From: Clostridia bacterium
GTDB lineage: Bacteria; Bacillota; Clostridia; Oscillospirales; CAG-272
Assembly: GCA_017482355.1 (NCBI GenBank)
Contig: JAFUNJ010000007.1
Location: forward strand, 28,020 to 92,019
Length of the DNA: 64,000 nt
Direction of reading: 5' to 3'
The notes under the pieces are model-generated. The model made no database searches, was not told where the DNA came from, and saw only the letters and a list, made by a program, of their open reading frames with translations. The first letter of the stretch is position 1. Each line of letters begins with the position of its first letter. Below are positions 27,870 through 64,000 of this stretch, piece after piece. The translations under genes and the position numbers were made by a program.

Positions 27870-28020
27870 CCTTCCCCAGCGGGGAAGGTGGCCGAGCTTG
27901 CGAGGCCGGATGAGGAGAAAAGAAACGGTGGATGATCAGAAAGGAACAAAAGAAACAAAACCTTGAAATCTCCTCATCCGTCTGCTCCTGCGTCGCAGCC
28001 ACCTTCCCCGCTGGGGAAGG
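27870..28020. repeat. Two inverted copies of the GGATGAGG repeat family
   Basis: Plus-oriented copy 27870-27917: CCTTCCCC-AGC-GGGGAAGG, then a GGCC...GGCC stem, then GGATGAGGAG. Minus-oriented copy 27970-28020: CTCCTCATCC, then a diverged middle, then CCTTCCCC-GCT-GGGGAAGG. The first palindromes match perfectly in both. About 50 bases separate the copies. The 427-base stretch from rplQ to the AraC gene holds only terminators and this pair; I see no gene in it. Confidence 0.75.
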
Positions 28021-46671: not shown

Positions 46672-46813
46672 TGGATGAAACAGTACCGAAAAGAAAATCT
46701 ACGAGATTAAAGAATTACGATTATAGTTCTGTTGGTGCGTATTTCGTTACGATATGTATAGCGGACAGAAAACCAATATTATCGGAAATTGTAAAGGCAT
46801 TCGATACCCAATT

Positions 46814-46841
46814 GGTAGGGGAGGGGCTTGCTCCTCCCGCA
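46814..46841 (+). repeat. REP-like palindrome inside the transposase gene, copy 1
   Basis: GGTAGGGGAGGGGCTTG then CTCCTCCCGCA. Half-arms GGGAG(G).../CTCCC pair around GCTTGC. Confidence 0.85.
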
Positions 46842-46981
46842 TATTCAGTTAGATTAAAACCATGCGGCTTGATTGTTAGAGAGCAATTAAAGCAAATAGA
46901 AATCCGTTTTCCAAGCGTATCTGTCGATGATTTTGTTATTATGCCGGACCATATCCATGCGTTAATCTTTTTACATAAGAA

Positions 46982-47009
46982 TACGGGAGGAACAAGCCCC
47001 TCCCCTACC
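46982..47009 (-). repeat. REP-like palindrome inside the transposase gene, copy 2 (inverted)
   Basis: Reads, on the minus strand, GGTAGGGGAGGGGCTTG then TTCCTCCCGTA, identical to copy 1 in 26 of 28 positions, opposite orientation, 140 bases away. Confidence 0.85.
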
Positions 47010-47232
47010 TTGAATGACGTTATATGTGCCTTCAAATCCTTGACTTCTCGGATATGCAAAAAGCAATGTGGAATAGAAAAAATATTCCAACGCTCGTTTT
47101 CTGAACATATTGTGCGAGATCAAGAGGATTATGTGAGACGTAAGAATTATATGCGTAAAAACCCCGTACGTTGGTATTATGACGAATTAAATTCAGAGAA
47201 GAAATAAAGATGTATGATATACGAAAAAACGC

Positions 47233-47471: not shown

Positions 47472-48473
47472 ATGGGATTAAAGATTCACAATTTTCCCAT
47501 ACAGTATATGGGATACAGTAACTTTGAAAAAATACGCAAATACATTAACGAAACCATTAACGGCAAAAACAGAAGAATAATGATGTATGACGATTATTTT
47601 ACCGAGAATTTTGTTGACGGGGGATACTTGTATTATCCTTTAGCGATACTCGGTAAAAAGAATCATCAAATACACTGGATAAAGTGGCGCATAAAAGAAT
47701 TTGAGCCACCTTACGAATGGGAAGACGATGCAGTGGTCGAGGACGGAAACGAAACTGTTCCGCAGAAATTCATCTACACAATGTCAAATCGAACGTATTA
47801 TTATGATTATTCAAAGTATTTGAAATTCAGGCATGAGCCGACGTACCTGGAAATAAACAGAGGATACGGCAAGAGCGCGAAATACTTTTATTCAAAAGAA
47901 ACCCATTACGAGCAGCGCCTTATTGACGATGTTGCAATGCAGGTAAGCGATTGGCTAAAATCGCATGTAAAGCGAGAAGGATGGATTAAGGAGGAGTATA
48001 ACGGTTCTATAGGATTTACGGATATTAGGCATAATAGCGTTGATAATCTATGGTATTGGAGAGTTGGAATACACGATAGAAACGCATTTGGGAAACATTT
48101 GTGGCTCAGATCCGAAGAAAAGCCCATACCCGGTATGACATCCTTAAAGATAGAGATATGCGATAAGGTGAGCAAGGAAATAGATCCAAAAGAAGGGTAT
48201 GACGCAAAGGTTCCCACTCCGCCTCCCGGAGAAACTTTATATTTTATGAGAGAGGTGCCGTACAATACGGCAGACCATTATAAACCGCCTAAACCGTATT
48301 CTTCGAACGACGTAGTACACCTCATCGAAACGCGAGGTGAAGATGAAGCGGCAGGTTGGATTGATACTATTAGTGCAATACTAAATGGTGCTCCGGAAAT
48401 TGTTGAGAAAAACCCCAAGCTCAAGAACTGGCGTGATAAAATGAACGAGGTTCGGGAAAGGCGAAAAAAATAG
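47472..48473 (+). CDS. Unknown protein, aromatic-rich
   Basis: 333 residues, GAGGT ribosome-binding site. I do not recognise it. Tyr and Trp are abundant (GGYLYYPLAIL; IHWIKWRIKEFEPPYEWEDD; NRTYYYDYSKYLKF; NLWYWRVGIHDRNAFGKHLW), with a Pro-rich turn (VPTPPPGETLYFM) and a basic end. There is no signal peptide or membrane segment, so it is cytosolic. The coding sequence is visibly more AT-rich than the genes on both sides and follows a transposase, suggesting recent acquisition. It reads as a single folded protein rather than a degenerate gene. Confidence 0.65.
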   Translation: MGLKIHNFPIQYMGYSNFEKIRKYINETINGKNRRIMMYDDYFTENFVDGGYLYYPLAILGKKNHQIHWIKWRIKEFEPPYEWEDDAVVEDGNETVPQKFIYTMSNRTYYYDYSKYLKFRHEPTYLEINRGYGKSAKYFYSKETHYEQRLIDDVAMQVSDWLKSHVKREGWIKEEYNGSIGFTDIRHNSVDNLWYWRVGIHDRNAFGKHLWLRSEEKPIPGMTSLKIEICDKVSKEIDPKEGYDAKVPTPPPGETLYFMREVPYNTADHYKPPKPYSSNDVVHLIETRGEDEAAGWIDTISAILNGAPEIVEKNPKLKNWRDKMNEVRERRKK

Positions 48474-48486
48474 TAGTTAATGGAGA

Positions 48487-48921
48487 ATGATTAATGAAAG
48501 TGTTCAAAAAATCGTCCATATTCTTTTTGCTGTTCTACTGATCATGACCGTCGCATGGTCGATTATTGATATACATTCCGAATATTCAATAGCAGCGAAA
48601 AGCGGAGAGGGAATAGAGCTTGCACTGCTTCCTATCGTTGCCGTTTTTTGGGGAGTTATTATAATAAGCGAGATCAGTTTATTTATCAGCGCCGCGTTTA
48701 TATTACGCGATTGCTGTGCCCAAAGATGGTTTTTGGCGGTATATTACATTGTTTTAGCTGAACTTTCACTTGTTGCGCATTACTTAATGGTGTTCTACCG
48801 TTACGGAAATATATCAAACAAAGGAAGCGATATTGCACTAATTGCACTCGCCGCCGCGATAATTATGCACATTGCCGGCGCGATAGTGAGAATTGTGAAT
48901 TGGTGTAAGAAGATAACCTAA
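48487..48921 (+). CDS. Small membrane protein, four helices, unknown
   Basis: 144 residues with about four hydrophobic helices: VHILFAVLLIMTVAWSIID, LLPIVAVFWGVIIISE/ISLFISAAFIL, WFLAVYYIVLAELSLVAHYL and IALIALAAAIIMHIAGAIV. It has a basic C-terminus (WCKKIT). The GGAGA lies directly before the ATG, which is too close for a good site, so the true start may differ by a few codons. It follows the unknown gene by 13 bases and shares its AT-rich composition. Function unknown; the pair may be a unit. Confidence 0.6.
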   Translation: MINESVQKIVHILFAVLLIMTVAWSIIDIHSEYSIAAKSGEGIELALLPIVAVFWGVIIISEISLFISAAFILRDCCAQRWFLAVYYIVLAELSLVAHYLMVFYRYGNISNKGSDIALIALAAAIIMHIAGAIVRIVNWCKKIT

Positions 48922-49955: not shown

Positions 49956-49986
49956 AATTAAGTACCTCTTGAAAAAATGTAATTAA

Positions 49987-50015
49987 AGTATATCACAAAA
50001 ATTTCCGCTTGTCAC
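49987..50015 (-). promoter_or_regulatory. Promoter of ddh
   Basis: Minus strand GTGACA (50015-50010), 17-base spacer, TATACT (49992-49987), with TG before the -10 box. No lysine riboswitch precedes ddh. Confidence 0.68.
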
Positions 50016-50033
50016 CATAATTTTATAAAAAAA

Positions 50034-50064
50034 TACGGCATACGGAAATTTTCCGTATGCCGTA
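50034..50064 (-). terminator. Strong terminator ending the repeat-protein/phage cassette
   Basis: TACGGCATACGGAAA paired with TTTCCGTATGCCGTA; on the minus strand followed by a run of seven T. It is 14 bases after the repeat-protein stop. Confidence 0.9.
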
Positions 50065-50077
50065 CTGATATTTGACC

Positions 50078-50494
50078 TCAGTAGCCGCAGCTATTGTTGT
50101 TGCAGCCGCAACCGTTATTTCCGCAACCGCCGCAAGAGGAGAGCGAACGGTCAAGGCCGCGAACTATGCGGTTTGTAGTGCAGGCAAAGCCCTTGGCGAG
50201 ACTGCCTATGATACCGTTGCAACCGCAACCGTTGTTGTAATCGCTTGTGCCGCCGACGTTGTTGCCGCAACCGCAACCGTTGTTGTAATTGCTTGTGCTG
50301 CCGACGTTGTTGCCGCAACCACAGCCGTTGTTGTAATTGCTTGTGCTGCCGACGTTGTTGCCGCAACCACAGCCGTTGTTGTAATCGTTGGCGCTTCCGA
50401 CGTTGTTGCCGCAACCACAGCCGTTGTTGTTTGCGTTATTGTAAGCGATGGCACCTCTGCCGCCGCATACGCTTCTGTTACAGTTTGAACACAT
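50078..50494 (-). CDS. Cys/Gly/Asn-rich tandem-repeat protein
   Basis: 138 residues. The centre is four near-perfect copies of a 16-residue unit, YNNGCGCGNNVGSTSN, flanked by MCSNCNRSVCGGRG at the start and SCGGCGNNGCGCNNNSCGY at the end. Over 20 Cys residues are regularly spaced as CGCG, so metal binding or disulfide cross-linking is likely; no signal peptide. An AAAGG ribosome-binding site precedes the ATG. The opposite strand is also open but reads as monotonous Ala/Val. It is the last gene before the terminator that closes the phage-like cassette, 74 bases after the amidase. Compositionally it recalls Cys/Asn-rich spore-coat type proteins, but no homolog is recognised. Function unknown. 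Confidence 0.68.
   Translation of the reverse strand: MCSNCNRSVCGGRGAIAYNNANNNGCGCGNNVGSANDYNNGCGCGNNVGSTSNYNNGCGCGNNVGSTSNYNNGCGCGNNVGGTSDYNNGCGCNGIIGSLAKGFACTTNRIVRGLDRSLSSCGGCGNNGCGCNNNSCGY
50225..50435. repeat. 48-bp tandem repeat, about 4.4 units
   Basis: Units start at 50225, 50273, 50321 and 50369, with a partial unit from 50417. Units 2 and 3 differ at very few positions; all carry GACGTTGTTGCCGCAACC. It codes for the 16-residue repeat of the protein above. Confidence 0.93.
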
Positions 50495-50568
50495 TATTTT
50501 TAATCGACCTTTCTGTCATTAATCAGGGCATAGCCCTAATTAAAGTATATGCGTGATTCCGACTTCCG

Positions 50569-51306
50569 TTAATCCTCTTTAATTATGGCAGGATAGCCGT
50601 CGGAGATAAGCTTCGCCTTCATCTCCTCAGCGTTTTCACGCTTCGAATAAGCGCCGACTTGAACGCGGTAAAGCTTTTCTTCCTTCGGTGTTTCTTCCTT
50701 TTTCGGTGTCAGAAGCTTGTCGACCTCACTTCGAAAATCGTTCATCGTAAGACCGAATTTAAGAAGCCAATGATCAATGTCGGAATGATTTGACGCATAG
50801 CCCTTCGCGTGCGCCTCGCGGTGCGAAACGATCACGCTCGACTTCCAGCCGTAGCGGCGGCAAATATCGGCGCAAAGCTCGACAGCCGCGCGGTAGACCG
50901 CGTCAAAATATTCCTTATTTTTGAGATTGTCCTCACAAATTTCAAACTGAATATGACCTGTCGGCTCGTAGTTGTACGAGCCATTTTTGCCCTTGCCGCT
51001 TCCCCAGGCGGCAATGTCCTCGGGCAGATTCTGCACAACGCCGACCGTACCGTCGGCAAGCTTGCCGACGAAATAGTGGACCGCCTTGCTCGTAGCCGAA
51101 CGGTTCCAGTGGTTGCCGTACTTATTCACGCCGATAAGCGAAAGAAGCTCGCTTCTTCTCGGATCATTGTCCGACGGCTGACTGTACCTCTTTATCGACG
51201 AATTGTTAGCGCCCGTGCTGTGAACTACGATGCCGACGGGCTTTATCGCCTGACGCTTTTTACCGTAGCAACGGCTCTGCGTGTGCATACATTCAATTAT
51301 CTTCAT
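50569..51306 (-). CDS. Phage-type N-acetylmuramoyl-L-alanine amidase with SPOR domain
   Basis: Endolysin of the phage-like cassette. 245 residues from ATG 51306. Residues about 20-190 form an Amidase_2/PGRP domain: KPVGIVVHSTGANN (first zinc His), GVNKYGNHWNRSATSK, VGVVQNLPEDIAAWGSGKG, and VSHREAHAKGYASNHSDIDH with later zinc ligands. After a Lys/Glu/Pro linker the last ~40 residues form a SPOR-like domain (LYRVQVGAYSKRENAEEMKA) that binds denuded glycan. No signal peptide, so release needs the holin encoded just upstream. Confidence 0.9.
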   Translation of the reverse strand: MKIIECMHTQSRCYGKKRQAIKPVGIVVHSTGANNSSIKRYSQPSDNDPRRSELLSLIGVNKYGNHWNRSATSKAVHYFVGKLADGTVGVVQNLPEDIAAWGSGKGKNGSYNYEPTGHIQFEICEDNLKNKEYFDAVYRAAVELCADICRRYGWKSSVIVSHREAHAKGYASNHSDIDHWLLKFGLTMNDFRSEVDKLLTPKKEETPKEEKLYRVQVGAYSKRENAEEMKAKLISDGYPAIIKED

Positions 51307-51520
51307 CTTCGTTTTCCTCACTGTTTCTAAGCTCGGGAAGTCCTGCTACGCTTGTAAGCAACGAAAGCAGTCCCGAGAGCACCGATGCCGACAGGAGCGA
51401 AATCCAATCAACCTCGCTTAAAAGCATAGACGTGCCGAGCATAGCGATCGCCGTCTGTGAAACGGTTCTTAATGCTCTTATCCCTGCGGCATGAAACCAT
51501 TTTGCTATTTTAGTCTTCAT
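51293..51520 (-). CDS. Holin, r1t-like
   Basis: 75 residues from ATG 51520. Two hydrophobic segments (TVSQTAIAMLGTSMLLS and WISLLSASVLSGLLSLLTSV) followed by AGLPELRNSEENEDED, an acidic tail. The pattern ALRTVSQT... VDWISLLSAS... LLTSVAGLPE matches r1t-type phage holins, which open the membrane to let endolysin out. It overlaps the genes on both sides by a few bases. Confidence 0.85.
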   Translation of the reverse strand: MKTKIAKWFHAAGIRALRTVSQTAIAMLGTSMLLSEVDWISLLSASVLSGLLSLLTSVAGLPELRNSEENEDEDN

Positions 51521-51788
51521 TTCTTTTCTTACTCCTTTTTTTCGCTTGCTCGAGATTTTTGAGCCGTCCCTCGTGATTTTCGAGAACGCGCTCATTACTG
51601 TTTATGCGTGCAAACATTTCCTTGTGAGTATTGTGACTGTTGTTCTTGAACTCGCTTATAACTTTATTAAGGGTATTTATCGTCGTTTCAAGAATGGCAA
51701 GCGTCTTGCTCAATTTGCTTACCCACGTCGCAATGCTCCCTGCAAACCCGAGCAGCGCTATAACTCCGAGCGCGATTTCCCAGTTCAT
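51510..51788 (-). CDS. Membrane-anchored coiled-coil phage protein (XhlA-like)
   Basis: 92 residues: an N-terminal membrane helix (IALGVIALLGFAGSIATWVS), then a coiled coil (AILETTINTLNKVISEFKNN; ARINSNERVLENHEGRLKNL) and a Lys-rich end. Shape and position before the holin fit hemolysin XhlA-type lysis accessory proteins. The N-out/C-in orientation is typical. Assignment by architecture only. Confidence 0.65.
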   Translation of the reverse strand: MNWEIALGVIALLGFAGSIATWVSKLSKTLAILETTINTLNKVISEFKNNSHNTHKEMFARINSNERVLENHEGRLKNLEQAKKRSKKRNED

Positions 51789-51794
51789 ACCGAT

Positions 51795-52358
51795 TCAGGC
51801 CTTCACGCCGTAAAGGGCAAAGACCTTTCCTCCAGAAGTGCCGTTGTACTTTTCGGTGTAAAACCCGGTCTCGTGGAACATAAAGACGGTATAAGACTCA
51901 TTGTCCGCGATCTGAAGCTCCATGGGAGATTGTACGTCCTTGCAATACGTGATCGGAATAGTGCTGCAGATCGGAGAATTTCCGCTTGTGGGGCTTGCAT
52001 AGCAAATGAGAAAATCAAAATCGGTGAGGTTGCCGCTATAGGAATAGGATGCCTTTCCCGTGCTGTCGGCAAAGATCGTCGTGAAGTTGCTTTTTCCGTC
52101 AATGTATCCCTTTACGGTCGCGTTGGAAACGGGATTCATACTCGTATCCGACATCTCATCGTCGATGTTAAAAGAACCGTCGGGAAGAGGAAGAACGAAG
52201 TCAAGCTTAAAGAATTCACCGTCGTCATAGCCGGTGACGGACGGATTTTCGCGGTAGGTAGCGGAACGCACATTTCCTATCTTCAGGTTGTTAATGCGTT
52301 CCTTGATAACTACCGCCTCTGAAAAGTCAAAATTGAAATTGTTGTTAAAGTTTTCCAT
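51795..52358 (-). CDS. Phage fibre-like or receptor-binding protein
   Basis: 187 residues. The first part is acidic and beta-rich. It holds DDEMSDTSMNPVSNATVKGY, a close relative of the STSENPVQNKVVK motif common in phage tail-fibre and baseplate-upper proteins. The C-terminal half (FDFLICYASPTSGNSPICST; YTVFMFHETGFYTEKYNGTS) looks like a small beta-sandwich. GAGGTGA ribosome-binding site. A short fibre without an obvious tail to attach to. Confidence 0.65.
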   Translation of the reverse strand: MENFNNNFNFDFSEAVVIKERINNLKIGNVRSATYRENPSVTGYDDGEFFKLDFVLPLPDGSFNIDDEMSDTSMNPVSNATVKGYIDGKSNFTTIFADSTGKASYSYSGNLTDFDFLICYASPTSGNSPICSTIPITYCKDVQSPMELQIADNESYTVFMFHETGFYTEKYNGTSGGKVFALYGVKA

Positions 52359-52369
52359 TATTTCACCTC

Positions 52370-52666
52370 TTACATAGAATCCTCAGGATACTTCTTCTTT
52401 AGGGCGACCTTTCGTATATCGGAAACGTAAACCTTTGCGTCGTCAGTTCTGAACGTCATCTGAAGCTCAATGATGCCGGGGTCAAACTCCATTGTTTCCC
52501 AATCCTCAAGCGTAAAGGAAGCGTAGTATCCGTCGAAGGTAAATCTTTCGTGCTCGATTACGATCGACCATACGTTCTCCTGAATGAGAATGGCTTCAAG
52601 ATAAGTTATCATATCGCTGTGAACGGGAAGCTTCAGAGTAAAAGTCGGTGTAGAACCCTTTACCAT
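52370..52666 (-). CDS. Small phage structural protein
   Basis: 98 residues, AAGGAGG ribosome-binding site 7 bases before ATG. MVKGSTPTFTLKLPVHSDMI then FTFDGYYASFTLEDWETMEF and IELQMTFRTDDAKVYVSDIR. This matches the layout of a short beta-rich protein I recall next to phage fibre genes in Firmicutes (GTTPT.TF.LP...LTQEDT..F....IQ..V). Role in the particle is unknown. It overlaps the upstream gene by 7 bases. Confidence 0.6.
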   Translation of the reverse strand: MVKGSTPTFTLKLPVHSDMITYLEAILIQENVWSIVIEHERFTFDGYYASFTLEDWETMEFDPGIIELQMTFRTDDAKVYVSDIRKVALKKKYPEDSM

Positions 52667-53007
52667 TCAGATCCCTCCTTCAAACGGTTAAGACGTCTTC
52701 TTCTGTATGAGTGGAAAACGTCGGCAATATAACCGAGAATGTCGCAAAGGTCAAGAGGGTCGGGAAGAACGTCGCCAAAAATCTTCACGACCGCGCCGTC
52801 ACCTATCAGAGTGTCGATGGCATAGCTCAGAAACGCCGATGCCTCAGTGACCTCGTTTTCCGCATCCTTGCATTCCTCGGCTCTTTTGCCCGCCTCGTCG
52901 GCGAGAAGCGAAATACGCTCGGCAAAATCGCTGTCGGGAACGAATGAAAACTCTTTTCCGTTAATGCAAAGCGGGATTTCAGGTGCTTCAATTATAAGGT
53001 TTTTCAT
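52660..53007 (-). CDS. Small phage protein, possible assembly chaperone
   Basis: 115 residues from ATG 53007. KNLIIEAPEIPLCINGKEFS then DFAERISLLADEAGKRAEECKD, and a basic end HSYRRRRLNRLKEGSEW. The order beta-strand with INGKEF followed by helical segments resembles phage proteins annotated as tail-assembly chaperones (DUF6673-like). A longer frame to 53124 would start in a Thr/Asp-rich stretch translated from the repeat of the upstream gene and is rejected. Weak evidence for role. Confidence 0.5.
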   Translation of the reverse strand: MKNLIIEAPEIPLCINGKEFSFVPDSDFAERISLLADEAGKRAEECKDAENEVTEASAFLSYAIDTLIGDGAVVKIFGDVLPDPLDLCDILGYIADVFHSYRRRRLNRLKEGSEW

Positions 53008-53023
53008 GGTTATCTTCCCCGAA

Positions 53024-53509
53024 TTATTCTCCGACTGCATCGCTGAATCCGTCATTGTATCCGGCGTTGTATCCGTCGTCGTAACCGTTGTCGTATCCGC
53101 TATCGTAGCTGTTATCGGTCTCATCTTCGGGTACTTCCTCCTCCTTTATCGGGATGTTGTATGCAATAATTTTTATGTGCTGAACGTGGTGCGAGCCGGT
53201 CGTGTGAGTTTCGACTTGTCTGACCTCATACGAGTCACTGGGCGGGAAATCATCTTTGCAGCTGCCTATGACCAGCTTTTGTCCCGTCACCACTGTAAAC
53301 GTTCTTTTCGTGAGCTTGTACATTTTTGAGGGAGGAAGGTATTTAAGAGAGCGCCTGCTGTATAACGGGATGTAAACCGTTACCTTGGTGTCCTCGACGT
53401 TGTCGCTGTTAACTATACATACCTTCGTTGCATCTAAGATGTGGCGCATGAATATACTGCCGCTGGGCGTGAAAAGAGTGACGGTATCGTTGAAACGGTA
53501 AAAACTCAT
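53024..53509 (-). CDS. Phage structural protein with GYxDGY tail
   Basis: 161 residues from ATG 53509 with GAGGAAGAG upstream. N-terminal MSFYRFNDTVTLFTPSGSIF; middle SRRSLKYLPPSKMYKL and a small beta domain. The last ~30 residues are an imperfect repeat (DSGYDNGYDDGYNAGYNDGF), acidic and aromatic. No recognised family; by place between the connector and fibre genes it is a minor head or neck protein. Confidence 0.55.
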   Translation of the reverse strand: MSFYRFNDTVTLFTPSGSIFMRHILDATKVCIVNSDNVEDTKVTVYIPLYSRRSLKYLPPSKMYKLTKRTFTVVTGQKLVIGSCKDDFPPSDSYEVRQVETHTTGSHHVQHIKIIAYNIPIKEEEVPEDETDNSYDSGYDNGYDDGYNAGYNDGFSDAVGE

Positions 53510-53901
53510 AGCTCTTCCTCCGCGTAAACACAACGGGACATAAGCCCTTCCTTTTTCAGTATGGCGACGGTCATTCCGGCAACGGGAACGCCGCCGATCG
53601 AAAAGCATCTCTTCTGGTTGGAAACGTAAGGGGTGCCGATCGAATAGTCGCCGAGCTTCTCGTCGATACCGGACGTAACCGCCGCAAGTCCGCTCAGAGC
53701 ATCAATTCCTCCCTGCGCAAAAAGCGTTTCCGCCTCGTAAGCGACGGCGAGTCGTATCTTTTCGGTTATGATCGAAATCGGAGAGCTGACGAGCAGATCA
53801 ACGACAGTGCTTGCGGCAGAGGCAATATAGGAAAATTCTTCTTCAGGTATCATGGAGCCGCCATATTGCGAAATGTAGTAATCGTATGAAATGTACTTCA
53901 T
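53506..53901 (-). CDS. Head-tail connector (gp6-like)
   Basis: 131 residues. MKYISYDYYISQYGGSMIPE then FSYIASAASTVVDLLV and KIRLAVAYEAETLFAQGG: an all-helical protein with the YGG.MIPE.EF pattern of phage gp6-like adaptor proteins, which form the ring below the portal. ATG with AAGAGGTG. Its 3' end overlaps the next gene by 4 bases. Confidence 0.72.
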   Translation of the reverse strand: MKYISYDYYISQYGGSMIPEEEFSYIASAASTVVDLLVSSPISIITEKIRLAVAYEAETLFAQGGIDALSGLAAVTSGIDEKLGDYSIGTPYVSNQKRCFSIGGVPVAGMTVAILKKEGLMSRCVYAEEEL

Positions 53902-53912
53902 GATGGCACCTC

Positions 53913-54356
53913 TTATCTTACCGTTCGGTAGTTTAAGGAGGAGATCGGCGTGTCAGCGCTGTTGAACGCGCTGAAAACAGGGGCAGATACCTTTTCGCGC
54001 TTAAATGCCTCGGGATCGTTTTCCATAATTTTTTCAAGCTCCGCCCTGATGCATCCGCCTTCGCATTCGGAAAGAACGCGGCGAAGCTCATTTTTCGCAA
54101 GCACAGATGACGGGCGTGCCTCCTTGATCATTTCGTCAATTATTCCGTTTTTAAATGCGGCGTGCCTTTCGTTCTCTTCCGAAAGAGAAACGATAAGCCC
54201 GTCGCGCTCGGCGGTAAGCGATGCGATAATACCGTCCTTTTCGTCATAGTCCTTGCACTTTTCCTTTAGTGCCGAAACGCTTCTGCCGTGCTCCGACATA
54301 ATAGCGTCAATTATGGACTTATCAAGTCCAAGCTCTTCAAGAAATTCTCTTTTCAT
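53913..54356 (-). CDS. Phage scaffolding protein (GP20-like)
   Basis: 147 residues, start MKREFLEELGLDKSIIDAIM after GGAGGAAC. A long central coiled coil (SALKEKCKDYDEKDGIIASL; TAERDGLIVSLSEENERHAA) and a helical C-terminal part (ASVLAKNELRRVLSE-like) follow the minor structural GP20/scaffold family, which acts inside the procapsid during assembly. It directly follows the portal gene, whereas the capsid gene is upstream of the portal here, an unusual order. Confidence 0.8.
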   Translation of the reverse strand: MKREFLEELGLDKSIIDAIMSEHGRSVSALKEKCKDYDEKDGIIASLTAERDGLIVSLSEENERHAAFKNGIIDEMIKEARPSSVLAKNELRRVLSECEGGCIRAELEKIMENDPEAFKREKVSAPVFSAFNSADTPISSLNYRTVR

Positions 54357-54370
54357 GTTTGTTCCTCCGT

Positions 54371-55645
54371 TCATTTGTACCAACGTGCTTTATACTCGTC
54401 GGCGGTTATTATTCCGCATTTAACGTCCTCGCGCCAAGCTTCTTTTACGTTGTCATTTACGTCAATTATACCGTCGCCTATCATAATGCCAAGCGATGGC
54501 TTTCCGATATTGAGCGAGTAGAGAGAGCAAAGAGTCGTGAGCGCATTGAAAAGCTCATTAAGAGCGTCTTTGAGCGCAGTTCTTATCGCTAAAACGGTGG
54601 TGTAGGTCCTCTGACGCATCGAACGAACCTCGGTAGCGGTCTTCGCAATTTCGGAAGGGTCTGAGAATGTGCCACGCGCAATTCCGCAAGCGTCCTCAAT
54701 GAGCATAATTATACGGTTAAGCCCGTTGATGAGCGACTTGTCGCGAAGCTCGGGGGCAAAGATCTTGAAAAGCTCGTTTGAAGAACAGCAGGCGTCAAGA
54801 GCGTTTGTGCGGAAAAGGCGCTCCTTTCCGAGCGGAAGCACGGGCTTGCCGTCCTTCCCGATACGGAACGCCTCGTCACTTGCATCAACGGCAAGCTCGC
54901 CGCCCTCAAACTCCCAAAGAAGACGTTCAAACTGCTTGTCTGCCTCGTGAATGAGATTCTCTGCGCGACGGAAAACGGGAACGCCGAACGGCGAAAACGG
55001 ATGGGTCGGATTTCCGAACGGCATGCCGAAATATACGAATAACGGCTTGCTCAGACCTTTGATCTCGACCCTCGGTGAGATACTTGCCCACTCGGCGACG
55101 TAGGAAAGCAGGGATGGCGCTGTGGCATTTTCGCCTTCAAAAACGCGGTTTGTTATAACGTAACCGTCGTCTGAACGGCGGTGCTCCTCGATTCTCGTGT
55201 AAAGCTTGCCATTTCTCTCGACGCGGTAAATAAAGGCGCATTCGTCGATCCTGCCGCTTGCGTCGGTTCCGAGAGGAATAAAATCAAACGGCAGAACTGT
55301 CTCAACGCCGAGATCTTTTCCGTCGTAGGTCGGCTTGAAAATGATTCCGCCGATAGCACAGGCGTATTCGACCGCCTTTTTAAGCTTGTTCTTCAGCGCG
55401 TCAATGCAGGAGATGATCTTTCCCTTTCCGTTTTTCGGCTCAATATCGAATTCCGTTACAGATAGAGTTGCAAGCTCCTTTGAAATAGAGGCGGCAAGGC
55501 TTATGCCGTGACTGTCAAGATATATTCCGTAGCTCCTCTTAAGCTCAAGTATCTCGTCACCCGAAATTATTCCGAACGGGATAAAGCTTTCGCCTGACTC
55601 CCCTCTTGAACGGAAAAATCGGGCAATATTTTCGTGTAGTTTCAA
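54371..55645 (-). CDS. Phage portal protein, SPP1 type
   Basis: 424 residues; TTG start at 55645 with GGAGGT 6 bases upstream. The portal ring is the DNA gate of the capsid. Conserved features: IFKPTYDGKDLGVETVLPFDF, SPFGVPVFRRAENLIHEADK, QFERLLWEFEGGELAVDAS, and late FSDPSEIAKTATEVRSMRQR, which match the SPP1 gp6-like family. Intact frame. It is separated from the capsid gene by a 63-base gap with a hairpin. Confidence 0.85.
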   Translation of the reverse strand: MKLHENIARFFRSRGESGESFIPFGIISGDEILELKRSYGIYLDSHGISLAASISKELATLSVTEFDIEPKNGKGKIISCIDALKNKLKKAVEYACAIGGIIFKPTYDGKDLGVETVLPFDFIPLGTDASGRIDECAFIYRVERNGKLYTRIEEHRRSDDGYVITNRVFEGENATAPSLLSYVAEWASISPRVEIKGLSKPLFVYFGMPFGNPTHPFSPFGVPVFRRAENLIHEADKQFERLLWEFEGGELAVDASDEAFRIGKDGKPVLPLGKERLFRTNALDACCSSNELFKIFAPELRDKSLINGLNRIIMLIEDACGIARGTFSDPSEIAKTATEVRSMRQRTYTTVLAIRTALKDALNELFNALTTLCSLYSLNIGKPSLGIMIGDGIIDVNDNVKEAWREDVKCGIITADEYKARWYK

Positions 55646-55672
55646 AACAGTACCTCCGTTAATAATTCTTTT

Positions 55673-55698
55673 TTAAGCTCCCGCGGAAGCGGGAGCTT
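55673..55698 (-). promoter_or_regulatory. Intercistronic hairpin between capsid and portal genes
   Basis: TAAGCTCCCGC-ggaa-GCGGGAGCTTA, 11-bp stem, no T run on the minus strand. It could stabilise the capsid mRNA or dampen readthrough, giving more capsid than portal. Confidence 0.5.
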
Positions 55699-55708
55699 AT
55701 TTGCTTGA

Positions 55709-56599
55709 TCAGGGTTTGACTACAAAAGAGACTCCTTCGTAACGGTTAGGAAGAACAAATACGTCCTCGAAGCTTTCCTCGTAGTAAACGTACTTGCCGC
55801 CGGTAGCAGCGGACGGCTCGTCAAGGCAGGCGAACTCATAAGAAACGGGGGTTATGACGGATTCGGGATGAATGAGCAGCATTTCGATCTGCTGAGCATT
55901 CTCGGAAACCGTGCAACCGACGGAGAAGTTGTATTCGGTCTTCATAAGAGAAGCGGGGACCTCGATAACGGTTACGCCGTCAAGGGTGGTAACGGTGCGG
56001 TTAACGTCGCCACCGCCGTTGTTTACAACAAAGCTTCTGCTCATCTCGGGGGCACATTTAAGCGCCATCATTATTTCGGGAGTAACGTAAAGAATTCTTC
56101 CCGAAACAGGGATACGGGCTTCAGTCATGTTTGCCATGAGAAGGTCGAACACCGAAATTACGTTGTCGGAGTCGACATTGCTGACCTCGGGCTCTCCGCC
56201 AAGGTAGATCCAGTCGGAGTAGATCTTCGAAATGGTGTAAGCATCCATTTCGGGGAATTTGTGCTCGTTGTTGAAGACTGAAGTTATGTTCGCAATGGTT
56301 GCGGCATAGTTGGTCTGATCAACGTCTGCGGGGTGAATGAGGGTGCTCCACTTTCTTTGGTTGGTAAGCACAAGCTCTTCCCACTGGTTTTCGTAATTGC
56401 GGGTAAGAGCATCAACGCTGTCTCTGTCAACATCGCTTCGTCCCGTAGTGGTTATAACGGGAATTTCGATCGTCTTACCGCCCTTGAAGCGGAAGCGACC
56501 GTTGTTTTTGGTAGCGTAAAGCGCACCGAAGTTAAGCGCGTAGGGAAATGCCTGCGCGAGCTGGTCGGAATAGACCTTTGCATAGTTAAGATCGTTCAT
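55709..56599 (-). CDS. Phage major capsid protein
   Basis: 296 residues, AAGGAG ribosome-binding site. NDLNYAKVYSDQLAQAFPYA, FRFKGGKTIEIPVITTTGRS, WEELVLTNQRKWSTLIHPAD, and the C-terminal IEMLLIHPESVITPVSYEFA/ YYEESFEDVFVLPNRYEGVS reflect an HK97-fold coat protein of the P22/SPP1-like group without N-terminal delta domain or protease. Intact, well expressed-looking gene with host-like codon use. It is the first gene after the terminase. Confidence 0.82.
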   Translation of the reverse strand: MNDLNYAKVYSDQLAQAFPYALNFGALYATKNNGRFRFKGGKTIEIPVITTTGRSDVDRDSVDALTRNYENQWEELVLTNQRKWSTLIHPADVDQTNYAATIANITSVFNNEHKFPEMDAYTISKIYSDWIYLGGEPEVSNVDSDNVISVFDLLMANMTEARIPVSGRILYVTPEIMMALKCAPEMSRSFVVNNGGGDVNRTVTTLDGVTVIEVPASLMKTEYNFSVGCTVSENAQQIEMLLIHPESVITPVSYEFACLDEPSAATGGKYVYYEESFEDVFVLPNRYEGVSFVVKP

Positions 56600-56686
56600 T
56601 TGTTTTTCTCCTTGTTTTTGAAAAAATATTTATATCATCGTGCTTTATAACGCCGATTTTACGCCTCGGCCGGCGAGGGCACGGTG

Positions 56687-57904
56687 TTATCCTATCAATT
56701 TTATCGCATCTCGCTCAATTGAATATTCAAGCGCGTCAAGCGAGTCAATATCTGTGCTTCCGTTGTCAAGACGCTCGTCGTGGGCGCCGTCCTGACGGTA
56801 AAGCGCGGTAGAAAGGGCGTTTTTCACGCTTTCGGCATCACGGCAAACGTAAAAACGTCTTTGAGCCATGAGCCGACAGGTGAGCCGTATTCGGTCGTTT
56901 ACGGGCGACTTTTTTGCAAGCCGTATGGCGCATCCAAGTCCTGCCTGCCGTGCCGTCTTTTTCAGGGAACGAATGAGTATCGGCTCGGCGTTGTCGCATA
57001 AGACCTGACCGATGTCGCCGAAATCACGCTCTACGGAATGGATAAAATCGCAAAACAGCTCGCCAAGTCGATCACTGTCGATAAGCGAGGAATGAAGCTC
57101 GCTTCTCAGAATAACAACGCTTTCATAATTTCCGACAGTACCGGTCGCAACGAAAGCCGTCGCGCTTTTGTTTCCGCCGAAGTCGATCCCGACAGTGATC
57201 TTCGAAAGCCGGAAAGTGGATATCTCCTCCCGCGAGAGTAAAAAGGAACTCGGGTCGTCGGCAAAACGGCGGTAGATGATGCCCTCCGCCGCAACCCACC
57301 GACCGAGAATGTATCGGTCGTAGTAAACGGTGCCCTCGTATTCCTTTTTCAAGCTGTGCACGAAGGAGGGAGAGAGAAAGGGATTATCGTCGATAATGTA
57401 GCTCTGATGGAAAATGTCGGCGTCACTGTCTAAAAACCGCTTGAACCAATGCTCGGGACCAACGGGGTTGCAGGTGCCGTCAAAGACCGAATGATCCTTG
57501 TCGAGACGGCTTTTGAGCATCTCAAAAACGTTCTCGCTCCAGGTCGTTATCTCGTCACCGTAAGCGTACTCAATTCCGCTTCCCTGAAGCTTTGACGCCT
57601 GATCTCCGCGTCCCGCGCCGACAAGCCAGCACTTGTGCCCGAACAGCATCACAGTGTCATTGCTTGACGGCTTACCGACGAAAAACTCACCCCAAATCTC
57701 TCTCATCGGATCAAGAATGTTGCGGCAAAGAGTCGAGACCGTCGTTCCGATGAGAACGATAAGTCCCTCGCCCTGACAGGCGCGTATCCGCTTTGGAATC
57801 ATGAAATAATCACAGTATGTCTTGCCGGATCGCGTGGCTCCGCTTTTTATGTTCCACCTGTGGGTCGCACCGTCAAAATATTCTCTTTGCTTGTGACTGA
57901 ACAT
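56687..57904 (-). CDS. Phage terminase large subunit
   Basis: 405 residues from ATG 57904, chosen for the AGGAGGTGAG ribosome-binding site; the frame extends upstream into sequence without a site. The motor ATPase has Walker A KSGATRSGKTYC and Walker B YAYGDEITTWSE; the nuclease (RNase H fold) has VGIDFGGNKSATAFVATG with the first Asp, LCDNAEPILIRSLKKTARQ with the second, and DSLDALEYSIERD with a third. All key residues are present, so it looks active. No small terminase gene is seen in the 286 bases upstream before dapA's control region. Confidence 0.9.
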   Translation of the reverse strand: MFSHKQREYFDGATHRWNIKSGATRSGKTYCDYFMIPKRIRACQGEGLIVLIGTTVSTLCRNILDPMREIWGEFFVGKPSSNDTVMLFGHKCWLVGAGRGDQASKLQGSGIEYAYGDEITTWSENVFEMLKSRLDKDHSVFDGTCNPVGPEHWFKRFLDSDADIFHQSYIIDDNPFLSPSFVHSLKKEYEGTVYYDRYILGRWVAAEGIIYRRFADDPSSFLLSREEISTFRLSKITVGIDFGGNKSATAFVATGTVGNYESVVILRSELHSSLIDSDRLGELFCDFIHSVERDFGDIGQVLCDNAEPILIRSLKKTARQAGLGCAIRLAKKSPVNDRIRLTCRLMAQRRFYVCRDAESVKNALSTALYRQDGAHDERLDNGSTDIDSLDALEYSIERDAIKLIG

Positions 57905-57918
57905 CGCCTCACCTCCTC

Positions 57919-58188
57919 GGCATAAACAGAATACCATAACGGAAAATATATTTCGCCCCGACTTTTTCCCCTCTTTTTCCCACGATTTTGCGCGGGAGAA
58001 GCGCGTGGGGTTCCCGAAAACGAACAAAGCGAGTTTTTGGGGTTCCCGAGGTTGTCCGTCTCTACAATTAAACGTATCGAAGCTTCCTATAATCGAAAGG
58101 GGTTTCCCCCTTGGCGCGCTTCTTTTGTAACTTTTCTTGCGCGAGCAAGAAAAGTTAATAAAACGGTATTAAAATTTTTCATCTATGC
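57919..58188. other. Gene-free stretch between the phage cassette and the lysine operon
   Basis: Holds a direct repeat GGGGTTCCCGA (58007-58017 and 58039-58049), which flanks an imperfect stem CCCGAAAAC/GTTTTTGGG; a hairpin AAGGGG-TTTC-CCCCTT near 58097-58111; and a 12-bp stem AACTTTTCTTGC-GCGA-GCAAGAAAAGTT (58129-58156) without a T run. I found no convincing minus-strand promoter for the phage genes, no small terminase, and no clear attachment site. Confidence 0.6.
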
Positions 58189-58217
58189 TTGACATATAGA
58201 AATATGTGTGCTACAAT
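58189..58217 (+). promoter_or_regulatory. Promoter of the dapA operon
   Basis: TTGACA (58189-58194), 17-base spacer, TACAAT (58212-58217), with TG before the -10 box. The transcript begins with the lysine riboswitch. Confidence 0.85.
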
Positions 58218-58224
58218 AAACGCG

Positions 58225-58402
58225 TACACAGTAAAGGCGCATCCGCGCAAGAGTACCGCTTATAGAAAAGATCCCATAGGCGAGGGAGATTATAGGCGGG
58301 AAAGGGCAGGATGCCGAAAGAAAGAAGCCGCCACCCTTTCTTGGTTCTTCAAAATAAGATTTGCTGAACTGTCGCCGAAGAAATCGGCGGAGCGTTATCT
58401 GT
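58225..58402 (+). promoter_or_regulatory. Lysine riboswitch (L box)
   Basis: Senses free lysine. The conserved blocks of the lysine aptamer are in order: AAAGGCGCATC...CAAGAGTA, GAGGGAGA, GGCGGGAAAGGG, ATGCCGAAAG, the TTGCTG...CTGTC junction, and GGCGGAGCGTTATCTG at the 3' end; the ends ACAGTAA and TTATCTGT pair as P1 with one bulge. These match the B. subtilis lysC element closely. It precedes dapA, dapB and lysA and is expected to switch them off in lysine by favouring the terminator just downstream. Confidence 0.9.
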
Positions 58403-58414
58403 AAGACCTCGGAC

Positions 58415-58471
58415 TATGCCCGCGGTGTAAGCATGATGCTCGGACTTTACTGTTCGGGTATTTTTTATTTT
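58415..58471 (+). terminator. Riboswitch-controlled terminator
   Basis: Outer stem TGCCCG/CGGGTA with a long imperfect interior (GTAAG with CTTTAC; GCATGATGC), then TTTTTTATTTT. It is the expression platform of the lysine riboswitch; dapA starts 20 bases later. Confidence 0.78.
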
Positions 58472-58490
58472 AAAAAGTGGGGAAATGACC

Positions 58491-59384
58491 ATGAAAAAAA
58501 CAGTATTTACAGGCGCAGCAAGTGCAATAATCACGCCCTTTGATAAGGACGGAAAGGTAGACTTTAAGGCATTTGCAGACCTGGTCGAATGGCAGATCAA
58601 GGAGGGAATCGACGCTATCGTAGTCTGCGGAACGACGGGCGAAGCATCGACGCTTTCCGACGAAGAGCACCGCGAATGTATCTCCTTTATGGTAAAGCAG
58701 GTCGCAGGACGCGTTCCGGTAATCGCAGGAACGGGAAGCAACTGCACCGAGTATGCAGTCGATATGACGAAGTTCGCATGTGAAGCAGGCGTTGACGGAG
58801 TTCTCTGCGTAACTCCATATTATAATAAGGCGACACAGAAGGGACTTATCAAGATGTATACTGAGATCGCCGACGCGTCGACGGTTCCCGTTATCCTCTA
58901 TAACGTCCCCTCGCGTACGGGAGTAAATATTGAGCCCGAGACCTACGCTGTCCTTGCCGAGCATCCGAACATCGTCGGAATCAAGGAAGCAAACGGCAAT
59001 ATCGGTAAGATAGTTGAGACATTCGCGCTCTGCGGAGATAAGCTCGATATATACAGCGGAAACGACGACCAGATCGTTCCGATAATGGCCCTCGGCGGAA
59101 AGGGCGTAATTTCGGTTCTTTCGAACCCGATGCCGAAGGAGACCTCCGAGCTTTGCAAGCTCGCGCTTTCGGGCGACATAAATGGTGCGGCTGAGCTTCA
59201 GTATAAGTATCTGCCTTTCATCAAGGCGCTCTTCTCCGAGGTAAACCCGATTCCCGTAAAGGCGGCAATGGCGCATATGGGCTACGGTGAAAACGTCCTC
59301 CGTTCTCCCCTCTATCCGATGGAAGAGAAGAACGAGGAGAAGCTCGTAAATGAGATGAAAAAGCTCGGCTTAAACGTAAAATAA
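58491..59384 (+). CDS. dapA: 4-Hydroxy-tetrahydrodipicolinate synthase
   Basis: Condenses aspartate semialdehyde with pyruvate, the first committed step to lysine and diaminopimelate. 297 residues from ATG 58491, 8 bases after GTGGGG; an ATG six bases earlier has too short a spacing. Key parts: CGTTGEASTLSDEEH, VTPYYNKATQKGL, YNVPSRTGVNIEP (catalytic Tyr, Arg) and GIKEANGNIGK (Schiff-base Lys). A normal (beta/alpha)8 aldolase. Controlled by the lysine riboswitch. Confidence 0.96.
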   Translation: MKKTVFTGAASAIITPFDKDGKVDFKAFADLVEWQIKEGIDAIVVCGTTGEASTLSDEEHRECISFMVKQVAGRVPVIAGTGSNCTEYAVDMTKFACEAGVDGVLCVTPYYNKATQKGLIKMYTEIADASTVPVILYNVPSRTGVNIEPETYAVLAEHPNIVGIKEANGNIGKIVETFALCGDKLDIYSGNDDQIVPIMALGGKGVISVLSNPMPKETSELCKLALSGDINGAAELQYKYLPFIKALFSEVNPIPVKAAMAHMGYGENVLRSPLYPMEEKNEEKLVNEMKKLGLNVK

Positions 59385-61691: not shown

Positions 61692-64000
61692 ATGAGTAAC
61701 CTGAAAAGAATTCTTTCATTTCTGCTTGTAACGGCGATGCTGTTCACGTGTGTAACAGTTTTCGCGGTTGAAGAAGCAGAAGAAGCCGCGAAGACGTATT
61801 CTTTCGACCTTTCTATCACAGATTCCGTCTCGGAAAATAATTTCCGTTTTGACGCGATCTCGAAGAAAGACGGTAGACTTGTCGGCGCAGAATCCACTGC
61901 GAGAGGAACCTGGTCTGATACTTGGCTCGGATATTGGCCGATAGGCGCAACAGGCAAATCCGACTACGTGTTCTATGACACGGAGGACAAATACTATGGT
62001 AGTATCATCGACATGTCCTGTGGCGGCGATTACAAGTCCGCCGTCGTATTTACAGCTCCCGAGGACGGTGTTTACGACATCTATGTCAAGGGTAATAAGT
62101 ACCAGAGCCAGACGGACGCAATCATAGACGTTGCGCTTATGAGAAACGGATATTCTCAGCCCCTTGCAACTGCTCTTGACGTTGTCGGAGCAAACGGCGC
62201 AGGCGAGGTAGTCTTTGACGTAAAGGAAGTTAAGCTCTCCGCAGGCGACGAGATCATGCTGGTATCGACGCTCAGTGACCTTAATACACGTCAGGGCTGC
62301 GACAACTTCGGTATCATCAAGTTTGACGTAACCAAGACAGGTACTGAGGGCGGTTATACTTACGGCAACCCGACGTATGAATTCGGCTGCGATCTTACTG
62401 CTAAGACCTGCGGTAACTTCTATCTTGCAGGAAGAGACTCCGAGGGAAATATCGACCGTCTCAAAATGGAGGTCGGTACTGCTTGGGGCGAGTGGAAGGG
62501 ATGGTATCTTAACACAGGAGCTGCGTACGTTTTCTGTGAAACTCAGGTATCTAATTCTAAGCTGAGCGGCGATCCTCATGGCTTGAGCGGTCAGTTTGCG
62601 TACATTGATATGATGCCGACAGCAGACTATGATGCGGTTGTAGTATTTGCTGCACCCGTAAGCGGCACCTATTCCTTCGACGCACTGTTTAGCAAGCTTC
62701 GTATTACTGCAGGCAGATCCGCCGGATATAAGGTAGAGGCGCTTAAGGGCGAGGAAGTGCTTGCAAGCCACACCTTTGCTACGCAGTCTCCTGCCGAAAA
62801 TCACGAGGATGCGAATCTTACAGGCAGCGATGTATACCTTAAGACAGGCGAAACCATAATGTTCGTTGCATCTCACGTTTCTGATGCCGCTTACGATGCC
62901 GAAATAGCTATCCGTTCGATCAAGGTGACACTCACTAACGCATCGTGCGAGCATGATTGGTTGAACGGCGTTTGTGAGACTTGCTATGCTTATTGCATTC
63001 ACGAATGGAATAACGGTATATGCTCTATATGTGGCGCCGAGTGTGTTCACGGTTGGAATAACGGCATTTGTGACTACTGCGAAGCATCCTGCTATCACGA
63101 TTGGAGCTACGCTAACGGCGAAAGCACCTGTGCGATCTGCGGACGCGTAACGGACGAAGTATACGTAGAGTATGTTTCTAACCTCGCTACCGATAAAACG
63201 GTTGACGGTAACTTCTTCCTTGCCGGCTTCCGTAACGACGGTGTGGTTTGCGAAGTGGAAGCAACTCCTAGAGCGACATGGAGCTCAAGCTATCCCGGAA
63301 ACTGGGTAGCCGGTGCTGCTACGCCCGATGCGTATATTACTCAGAAGACCGAAAGCACGTTCAATTCCGACGTAAAATTCGATATGTATCCTACCGCTGA
63401 TGGAACGTATGCGGCAGCACTCGTATTCAAGGCACCTGCAGACGGCATCTATAACGTAAATGCTCAGCTCCAGGTAATATACAGCGCTAAGGTTGAGATC
63501 GTTCTTATGAAGAACGGAACAGAGCTGCTTACCAAGAAAGCCAGCGAGTGGAGAGAGCTTATTGATATAACGTACGGAAATATCGAGCTTAACAAGGATG
63601 ATCAGCTTATCATCGCAGTCTACAAGGGCGATGCAGGAGACGCGTTGAATACCGGTTATGTTTCCTTCAACGTAGGCGGTCTCTTCGCAACCTGTCCTCA
63701 CGTTTGGGACGCTGAAACAGGCACCTGTTCCGTATGTAACGTTGGTTGCCCCGATCATAACGAGAAGACCGAATCGGGCGCTTGTGCTACCTGCGGAAAG
63801 GGACATACTCATACCGTAACTGCTGACAACGCTACCTGTAAGGCACCTGCAATCTGCGGCACTTGCGGATACGAGGTTGCTCCTATCAACCCCGAAAATC
63901 ACGGTGAAATTTCTTACGAAGCAAACGGCGACAGAACTCATAAGGTTCTTTGCTCGCTCGGATGCGTGATCGACGAGAATGCAACTTGCGTTCTTGACGA
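61692..64000 (+). CDS. Large secreted protein with Cys/His/Trp repeats (3' end outside window)
   Basis: At least 769 residues without a stop. A signal peptide is clear (KRILSFLLVTAMLFTCVTVFA). Three similar beta-sandwich modules follow: the first (SFDLSITDSVSENNFRFDAI; PEDGVYDIYVKGNKYQ), the second from about residue 230 (GCDLTAKTCGNFYLAGRDSE; APVSGTYSFDALFS), and the third from about 495 (SNLATDKTVDGNFFLAGFRN; APADGIYNVNAQL). Between the second and third lie four short Cys modules of the form C.HEWNNGICSICGAEC; further such modules start at about 670 (CPHVWDAETGTCSVCNVGC). The Cys/His set is that of a small zinc or disulfide knuckle. Likely a surface or cell-wall-associated protein, perhaps glycan-binding. 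Codon use is host-like. Confidence 0.8.
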   Translation, partial: MSNLKRILSFLLVTAMLFTCVTVFAVEEAEEAAKTYSFDLSITDSVSENNFRFDAISKKDGRLVGAESTARGTWSDTWLGYWPIGATGKSDYVFYDTEDKYYGSIIDMSCGGDYKSAVVFTAPEDGVYDIYVKGNKYQSQTDAIIDVALMRNGYSQPLATALDVVGANGAGEVVFDVKEVKLSAGDEIMLVSTLSDLNTRQGCDNFGIIKFDVTKTGTEGGYTYGNPTYEFGCDLTAKTCGNFYLAGRDSEGNIDRLKMEVGTAWGEWKGWYLNTGAAYVFCETQVSNSKLSGDPHGLSGQFAYIDMMPTADYDAVVVFAAPVSGTYSFDALFSKLRITAGRSAGYKVEALKGEEVLASHTFATQSPAENHEDANLTGSDVYLKTGETIMFVASHVSDAAYDAEIAIRSIKVTLTNASCEHDWLNGVCETCYAYCIHEWNNGICSICGAECVHGWNNGICDYCEASCYHDWSYANGESTCAICGRVTDEVYVEYVSNLATDKTVDGNFFLAGFRNDGVVCEVEATPRATWSSSYPGNWVAGAATPDAYITQKTESTFNSDVKFDMYPTADGTYAAALVFKAPADGIYNVNAQLQVIYSAKVEIVLMKNGTELLTKKASEWRELIDITYGNIELNKDDQLIIAVYKGDAGDALNTGYVSFNVGGLFATCPHVWDAETGTCSVCNVGCPDHNEKTESGACATCGKGHTHTVTADNATCKAPAICGTCGYEVAPINPENHGEISYEANGDRTHKVLCSLGCVIDENATCVLD

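Follow-up and report, generated by a model that had tools for sequence, protein, structure and literature searches.

Why would a bacterial chromosome carry a set of intact phage head and lysis genes with almost nothing of a phage tail? The question is raised by a cassette on contig JAFUNJ010000007.1 of Clostridia bacterium (assembly GCA_017482355.1; Oscillospirales, CAG-272), found in a stretch of 64,000 nucleotides (positions 28,020 to 92,019) that is here called the window. The cassette comprises 12 open minus-strand genes over about 7.3 kb (50569–57904 of the window), encoding a terminase, capsid, portal, scaffold, adaptor, head-closure-like protein, tail-assembly-chaperone homologue, two fibre-region proteins, an XhlA-like protein, a holin and an amidase. 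These are phage-derived structural and packaging genes in a chromosome, and the cluster holds no replication, integration or immunity genes. An initial annotation, made from the letters of the window, had offered three readings: a domesticated particle resembling a gene transfer agent (GTA), a tail-less or very short-tailed phage residue, and a satellite that borrows tails. The first is favoured here, the second fits the ancestry of the genes, and the third is disfavoured. We put the probability at roughly 0.6 that the cassette is a domesticated siphovirus head-and-lysis module, kept as a GTA-like particle, vertically inherited, and tail-less or stub-tailed. This reading is favoured because the genes are under purifying selection, the cassette recurs in its genus with shared neighbours, one related genome has an empty site, the portals form one group and the promoter of the terminase gene (terL) is conserved; gene content and the missing tail genes also support it.

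Selection on the cassette genes

The comparison covered nine genomes of the genus (G000 to G008, G000 being the window's genome). The named relatives are metagenome-assembled genomes of uncultured Clostridia and Oscillospiraceae, incomplete to varying degree, and the nearest two come from water-deer and roe-deer colon. Six of the nine carry the cassette (G000, G001, G002, G004, G005 and G007). The dN/dS calculation that the initial annotation had proposed for terminase and capsid was made for all 12 genes in the three species pairs among G000, G002 and G007, and gave Nei-Gojobori values of 0.05–0.30, indicative of purifying selection; YN00 values were similar, with some pairs yielding no estimate. 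For terL the ratio is 0.053–0.057, and for the flanking host genes ddh, dapA, dapB and lysA it is 0.05–0.09. The window's terL product is 95, 94, 70, 72 and 67% identical to those of G002, G007, G001, G004 and G005, respectively. In the three closest species no other of the 12 proteins reaches so high an identity; in G005 the capsid surpasses it. Synonymous distances (dS) of the cassette genes overlap those of the flanks, and several inner genes are higher. Because some of these distances exceed the flanks and the flanks themselves vary, recombination within the region is possible; taken together, the values support the view that the cassette has long been resident under purifying selection.

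A prophage remnant in decay is a very improbable source of this pattern. It would agree with the lost tail genes, with the missing second half at the dapA site of G004, and with the portal of metagenome contig L086, which is split into two frames, but all 12 genes are open in G000, G002, G007, G001 and contig L085, and purifying selection was found in the three species tested; the truncated locus of G004 is a partial exception to the lack of broken genes. The initial annotation had called all genes intact and the locus no decaying remnant. Both statements are borne out, the second by recurrence across the genus, shared neighbours and selection on every gene.

Chromosomal site and distribution

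In five of the six carriers the cassette adjoins dapA, with ddh, DUF1015, NUDIX or rsmB genes on its other side. In G000, G002, G007 and G001 the complete cassette is flanked by dapA and a Gly-rich gene, which is followed by ddh in the first three and by DUF1015 and NUDIX genes in G001; in G004 it lies between dapA and rsmB, ending after the chaperone homologue. Since rsmB, NUDIX and DUF1015 are found beyond ddh in the window and in G002, these neighbourhoods can be read as a single syntenic block that has undergone losses. At a contig end of G008 a terL fragment adjoins a DUF1015 gene (46% identical to the window's); this gene neighbours the cassette in G001 and lies beyond ddh in G000 and G002. 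The proposed conserved location between ddh and dapA holds for G000, G002 and G007, and its dapA side for five of six carriers, but fails for G005. At the dapA/Gly-rich junction of G006 there is no cassette, and similarity to the riboswitch stretch was found (107 bp, 79%).

Portal and terminase matches in G006 were considered as cassette genes and rejected, as they belong to a different prophage. The IMG/VR contigs L085 and L086 were rejected as free phages, because L085 carries the dapA-upstream flank and L086 begins at terL.

Absence from close relatives together with flanking attachment (att) sites had been named as the mark of an ordinary reduced prophage. The well-sequenced G006 does lack the cluster, but no exact repeat of at least 10 bp is common to the cassette ends (49956–50640 versus 57851–58500), and thus no att-like repeats were found. 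As initially stated, Pfam searches and lists of open reading frames (ORFs) gave no integrase or repressor in the cassette or among the genes from rsmB to lysA around it, which look host-like (positions 1–28 kb of the window lay outside the search), and no small terminase (TerS) candidate was found among ORFs of at least 40 aa upstream of terL. These results bear on a satellite of the capsid-forming phage-inducible island type, or a stripped prophage, that borrows the tails of a helper phage. Such islands are marked by an integrase, att sites, a regulator and a TerS of their own, none of which was found for the window cassette. The head-only gene set would suit a tail borrower, and the different prophage in G006 has a related terminase, but the neighbourhood is the same in five species and no phage tail family was found in the six carriers, so that this explanation is highly unlikely.

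The small genes and the missing tail

Profiles derived from the cassette proteins were used to search the ORFs of the window and of 131 related loci, including nine duplicates; they were iterated on the same loci and may have drifted, and positional agreement is independent of this. In ordinary phage relatives, the 161-aa profile picks up the gene next after the adaptor, and the 115-aa profile the one next after the tail tube, which is the tail assembly chaperone slot. The 115-aa protein and these post-tube relatives have a similar G-x-G-x-x-x-x-IFG stretch; the window protein has no Pfam match, and for its homologue in G069 the match to DUF6673 is no better than E 0.098. Given the homology to the post-tube gene, the cassette retains one relic of tail assembly. 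The 98-aa protein could be placed in no named family. The 187-aa protein has the motif D-SxNxVxN in common with a 508-aa fibre-like protein of phage locus L102, and is 86% identical to its counterpart in G002 and 45% in G007, with a C-terminus that diverges strongly between close species.

Profile searches for tube, tape measure (PF10145), Dit (two profiles) and Tal gave no match in the cassette or the six carrier genomes, and those for Dit, Tal and tape measure were negative in all nine genomes of the genus. As controls, PF10145 was found in 7 of 14 control genomes, the tube family phrog_3099 in two of three positive relatives, and Dit in 3/3 and 4/4. The complete tail module of an ordinary tailed prophage was found neither in the cassette nor in its carriers, and the integrase of such a prophage was not found around the cassette. 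The initial annotation had seen no tail genes, and had held that a sensitive profile search finding them among the small ORFs would make the cassette an ordinary reduced prophage. That search returned one tail-assembly homologue, which corrects the first claim and partly answers the second, but the absence of tube, tape measure, Dit and Tal stands.

Portal phylogeny and sister genera

A portal profile matched 17 of 295 genomes of the family at 1e-30. Nine belong to the capsid-before-portal class, as does G174, whose portal is truncated where its contig ends; the remaining seven hold different elements. The portal tree comprised 116 rows, taken from 130 matches longer than 380 aa after near-copies were dropped, with G174 and L086 left out for their length, and phage portals were drawn from 80 of 113 viral-contig loci, 29 genome loci and further genome loci. 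A branch with SH-aLRT 100 separates the 12 cassette portals from the rest, and midpoint rooting places them among the phage portals; the tree comes from a short search without bootstrap, and L115, L045 and L017 have long-branch or composition warnings in it. A capsid gene ahead of the portal, which the initial annotation had rightly called unusual, occurs in 13 of 49 non-duplicate loci with both genes labelled, all of this cassette class, and the other order in 36 (73 further loci had an unlabelled capsid).

Two other genera of the family, g62 and g70, have cassettes that share the order terL-capsid-portal-scaffold-adaptor-stopper-chaperone and the same portal group, but these also have neck, tube-like, Dit, Tal and fibre genes. 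Their chaperone gene is directly followed by Dit, with no tape measure in between, and the tube-like protein matches phrog_3099, a family of unknown function (3.7e-5 in G069, 0.026 in G077). The presence of tube-like, Dit and Tal genes without a tape measure in these sister genera suggests that the tail was lost stepwise. In G077, G132 and G174 the cassette adjoins spmA/spmB-like genes (named by eye), and between G077 and G132 the cassette proteins are 50–87% and the flank proteins 70–84% identical. Two g70 genomes have a short ORF upstream of terL (L046 5994–6347, L047 14297–14626) with a TerS-like tail, by eye perhaps a truncated TerS.

A second set of compact cassettes was found in genera g24, g65 and g77 via the Tal family (41 of 395 genomes; 20 stretches retrieved), with the order terL-portal-scaffold-capsid, further genes, and then Dit-Tal-fibre (L195, L197, L200 and L201 in g65; L190, L196, L198 and L023 in g24; L189 and L191–L193 in g77). 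No ORF above about 320 aa lies between tube and Dit in the mapped loci; g77 has one of 274–320 aa there, which by eye is tape-measure-like in L193. Twelve of 13 loci had their portal in the tree, where they form one separate group (support 91), and the second set possibly represents an independent GTA-like domestication. Also seen were phage-like loci (L187 in G077 C2, L185 and L186 in G174, L188 in G350) that combine tape-measure-sized ORFs of 716–1241 aa with relatives of the cassettes' Dit and Tal. They are a possible source of recombination.

Putative promoter of terL

Three tandem repeats and an extended −10-like element precede terL (Table 1). The repeats are conserved in G002, G007, G001, L085 and G005, where the cassette lies at another site; they are cut to two in G004, are recognisable though less exact in genus g62, and are not visible in the 220 bases before terL of G008, G077 and G132. 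Their conservation implies a regulator that would act on them. The terL start at 57904 is backed by a GGAGG site (57916–57912) and by the conserved promoter just upstream, and a longer TTG start in the ORF list fits less well because it would overrun that promoter. A motif search allowing up to three mismatches in eight genomes recovered the terL sites of G000, G002, G007, G001 and G005 and missed those of G004 and G069. In the cassette-less G006 it returned 12 sites, all with two or three mismatches, versus five for a reversed control, and hence the motif is not specific at this threshold.

In G000 the motif occurs a second time (one mismatch; L249 988–1012), as GGGAAAAA repeats with the same 11-bp spacing; parA and a gene that by eye is noc/parB-like flank this site, a parS-like sequence lies next to it, and G002 has a similar second site. 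Control by MraZ, an idea taken from the tandem GGG repeats, was rejected because the region upstream of mraZ in G000, G002 and G007 has AAAGTGGGT/AAAGTGG repeats 10 bp apart, not the cassette motif; no repeat of that type was matched upstream of mraZ in five other genomes.

Gene content and boundaries

The twelve-gene content and order given by the initial annotation were confirmed, with all ORFs open and profiles supporting the main roles (Table 1). The terminase, capsid, portal, adaptor, holin and amidase can be assigned firmly from their sequences; the scaffold assignment is weak by profile and probably correct, since it fits. Key terminase residues had been reported as present, and in six aligned terminases GAxRSGKT (which we take to be Walker-A-like), YAYGDE, D241, D304, D385 and D387 are invariant. 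The amidase has its SPOR C-terminus in G000, G002 and G007, and a different C-terminus in G001, G005, L085 and L086. The GC content is 49.4% in the cassette and 49.2% in the window.

Table 1. Features of the cassette and its boundaries, in window coordinates.
Feature	Position	Strand	Evidence
terL, terminase large subunit, 405 aa, ATG start	56687..57904	-	phrog_2 1.7e-28; PF03237 over cut-off
Major capsid protein, 296 aa	55709..56599	-	phrog_422 2.9e-95; 58% identity to phiCDKH02/phiC2 capsid
Portal, 424 aa	54371..55645	-	phrog_533 1e-78; portal tree
Probable scaffold, 148 aa from ATG at 54359	53913..54359	-	PF06810 8e-7 (under cut-off); phrog_194 3e-5
Head-tail adaptor, 131 aa	53506..53901	-	phrog_541 2.8e-12
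Head-closure (stopper)-like protein, 161 aa, repetitive GYNDG-type C-terminus	53024..53509	-	own cassette profile; putative function
Tail-assembly-chaperone homologue (DUF6673-like), 115 aa	52660..53007	-	own cassette profile
G-S/T-TPTF-motif protein, 98 aa, perhaps fibre or baseplate adaptor	52370..52666	-	phrog_15594 1e-3 (unknown function); 7-row alignment
Candidate short fibre or receptor-binding protein, 187 aa, variable C-terminus	51795..52358	-	no family match
XhlA-like membrane/coiled-coil protein, 92 aa	51510..51788	-	phrog_1009 4e-9 (unknown function); PF10779 XhlA only 0.34
Holin, 75 aa	51293..51520	-	PF16945 1e-11; phrog_443 7e-14
N-acetylmuramoyl-L-alanine amidase with SPOR domain, 245 aa	50569..51306	-	PF01510 1e-15; PF05036 4e-7; phrog_15001 4.5e-54
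Three tandem repeats, 11 bp apart (GGGAAAAAGAG/GGGAAAAAGTC/GGGGCGA; GGGAAAAA type), upstream of terL	57953..57981	-	
Extended -10-like element TGGTATTCT of putative terL promoter	57928..57936	-	conserved in 6 aligned upstream regions; putative function
Lysine riboswitch of dapA, host boundary	58224..58405	+	RF00168 1.2e-20
Gly/Asn/Cys-rich host gene, repetitive 138-aa protein, other boundary	50078..50494	-	similar gene beside dapA in G006

The riboswitch fronts dapA in a lysine/DAP biosynthesis cluster (dapA-dapB-lysA, with ddh nearby). At the other boundary, the Gly/Asn/Cys-rich protein is 41% identical to its G006 counterpart over 87 aa, partly for compositional reasons, with the motif RIVRGLDR common to both; four other genomes of the genus have a similar gene next to dapA or the cassette, and the antisense strand of the window's gene is open over nearly its whole length. 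No family above cut-off was found at 46671–47207, 47472–48921 or 61716–63941. The first of these, on the plus strand and 3.4 kb from the cassette, encodes a 178-aa protein that by eye resembles a REP-associated (RAYT-type) transposase, with no Pfam match at 1e-5.

Points against domestication as a GTA-like particle

Several observations weigh against the favoured reading. The element is known from its genes, so that particles, their DNA content and expression are all inferred. In G004 the locus stops after the chaperone homologue, and the second half was not sought elsewhere in that genome. The G005 cassette is at another place in the genome, and blast matches were obtained for 8 of the 12 window proteins, with none for the scaffold, 161-aa, 92-aa and holin proteins; the scaffold and 161-aa slots were matched solely by the cassette-derived profiles. 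G003 (71% complete) and G006 (94% complete) have no cassette. The absence searches depend on profile sensitivity, phrog_3099 having missed one of three positives and PF10145 having been found in only half of its controls, and G000 is 77.5% complete, though G002 and G005 reach 95–96%. The YN00 dN/dS of the holin reaches 0.35. Between G000 and G002, dS is 1.27 for the 161-aa gene and 1.07 for the adaptor, above the 0.47–0.64 of the flanks; among cassette genes it reaches up to 2.1 between G000 and G007, and the flanks themselves range over 0.22–0.77 between G002 and G007. What was found is vertical inheritance under purifying selection, with uneven dS, a different site in G005 and two genomes without the cassette.

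Comparison with known systems

The capsid is 58% identical to that of the Clostridioides phages phiC2 and phiCDKH02, which are complete tailed phages with records of about 56 kb. RcGTA-type agents of the Alphaproteobacteria are domesticated siphovirus clusters with vertical descent and unspecific packaging. RcGTA keeps a tube, a short tape measure, Dit and a hub; none of these was found for the window cassette.

The GTA of Faecalibacterium (FpGTA) appears to be the only close precedent found in the literature. FpGTA is described as particles of 40 nm that lack identifiable tails and hold about 9 kb of DNA, encoded by two operons (10.5 and 5.5 kb) with structural genes, holin and endolysin, and TerS, and is called podovirus-like by its authors (Borodovich, 2026; PMC12946183); its capsid and portal have the accessions RCH50849.1 and RCH50851.1. 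The same study reports that GTA-like packaging is prevalent in human gut Clostridia, and extends it by metagenomic reads to Oscillospiraceae and Christensenellaceae; the gene cluster identified is that of Faecalibacterium (PMC12946183). On this description, both systems occur in Clostridia, combine head, packaging, fibre or receptor-binding and lysis genes, and lack replication genes, the window cassette being characterised from its genes. The cassette differs in its layout as a single 7.3-kb operon and in its siphovirus-type ancestry, and has the capsid ahead of the portal. FpGTA has a TerS, described as lacking an obvious DNA-binding domain, upstream of TerL and a separate second operon; here there is one operon, and no TerS was seen. 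No Faecalibacterium title occurred among 29 portal relatives from 84,980 species genomes, scanned with two peptide patterns.

FpGTA I and II lie about 125 kb apart in one strain (PMC12946183), and the window cassette could by analogy belong to a two-locus GTA whose tail lies elsewhere in the genome. The cassette, however, already has fibre-region and lysis genes of its own, such as are named for FpGTA II, and the negative searches across the genus, within the limits of profile sensitivity, extend to Dit, Tal and tape measure; a second locus thus seems highly improbable.

The head may instead have been domesticated for a role other than transfer, as a PBSX-like killing particle, a phage decoy or a lysis device, with packaging incidental. 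PBSX has a tail, which counts against the first of these. The want of a tail for DNA injection, the lysis module and the variable fibre candidate would suit such a role, and the FpGTA authors leave a PBSX-like role open for their particle (PMC12946183). A gene useful for packaging, terL, nevertheless has top identity in the three closest species and a housekeeping-like dN/dS, and we consider a non-transfer role unlikely.

Proposed mechanism and implications

For the GTA-like particle, co-transcription, particle formation, packaging of host DNA, attachment and DNA delivery are steps that we infer. The 12 genes would be transcribed together from the conserved terL promoter. Capsid and scaffold would assemble a head on the portal, and TerL, with no recognisable small terminase to select viral DNA, would fill the heads with chromosomal DNA; the lack of a recognisable TerS upstream of terL fits unspecific packaging. 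The adaptor and the 161-aa protein would close the vertex, which the 98- and 187-aa proteins may provide with a short tip for receptor binding. The XhlA-like protein, holin and amidase would lyse a few of the producing cells. As to DNA entry into a recipient without a tail, the simplest suggestion would be a portal stub that bears fibres.

A broader scenario, which we offer tentatively as an open possibility, is that siphoviruses were domesticated two or more times in this family of uncultured gut Clostridia, and that the line of the window lost the tape measure and then the tube, Dit and Tal, leaving a tail-less DNA-packaging particle with a receptor-binding tip. The cassette is a compact single-operon GTA candidate in relatives of deer-gut Clostridia, accompanied by sister genera with intermediate tails and by a candidate regulatory motif, and with it one could test which genes such a DNA-packaging particle can do without and whether it requires a tail at all. 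If true, repeated domestication and stepwise tail loss would mean a separate origin of GTAs in Gram-positive bacteria and would provide a natural series of a tail becoming dispensable.

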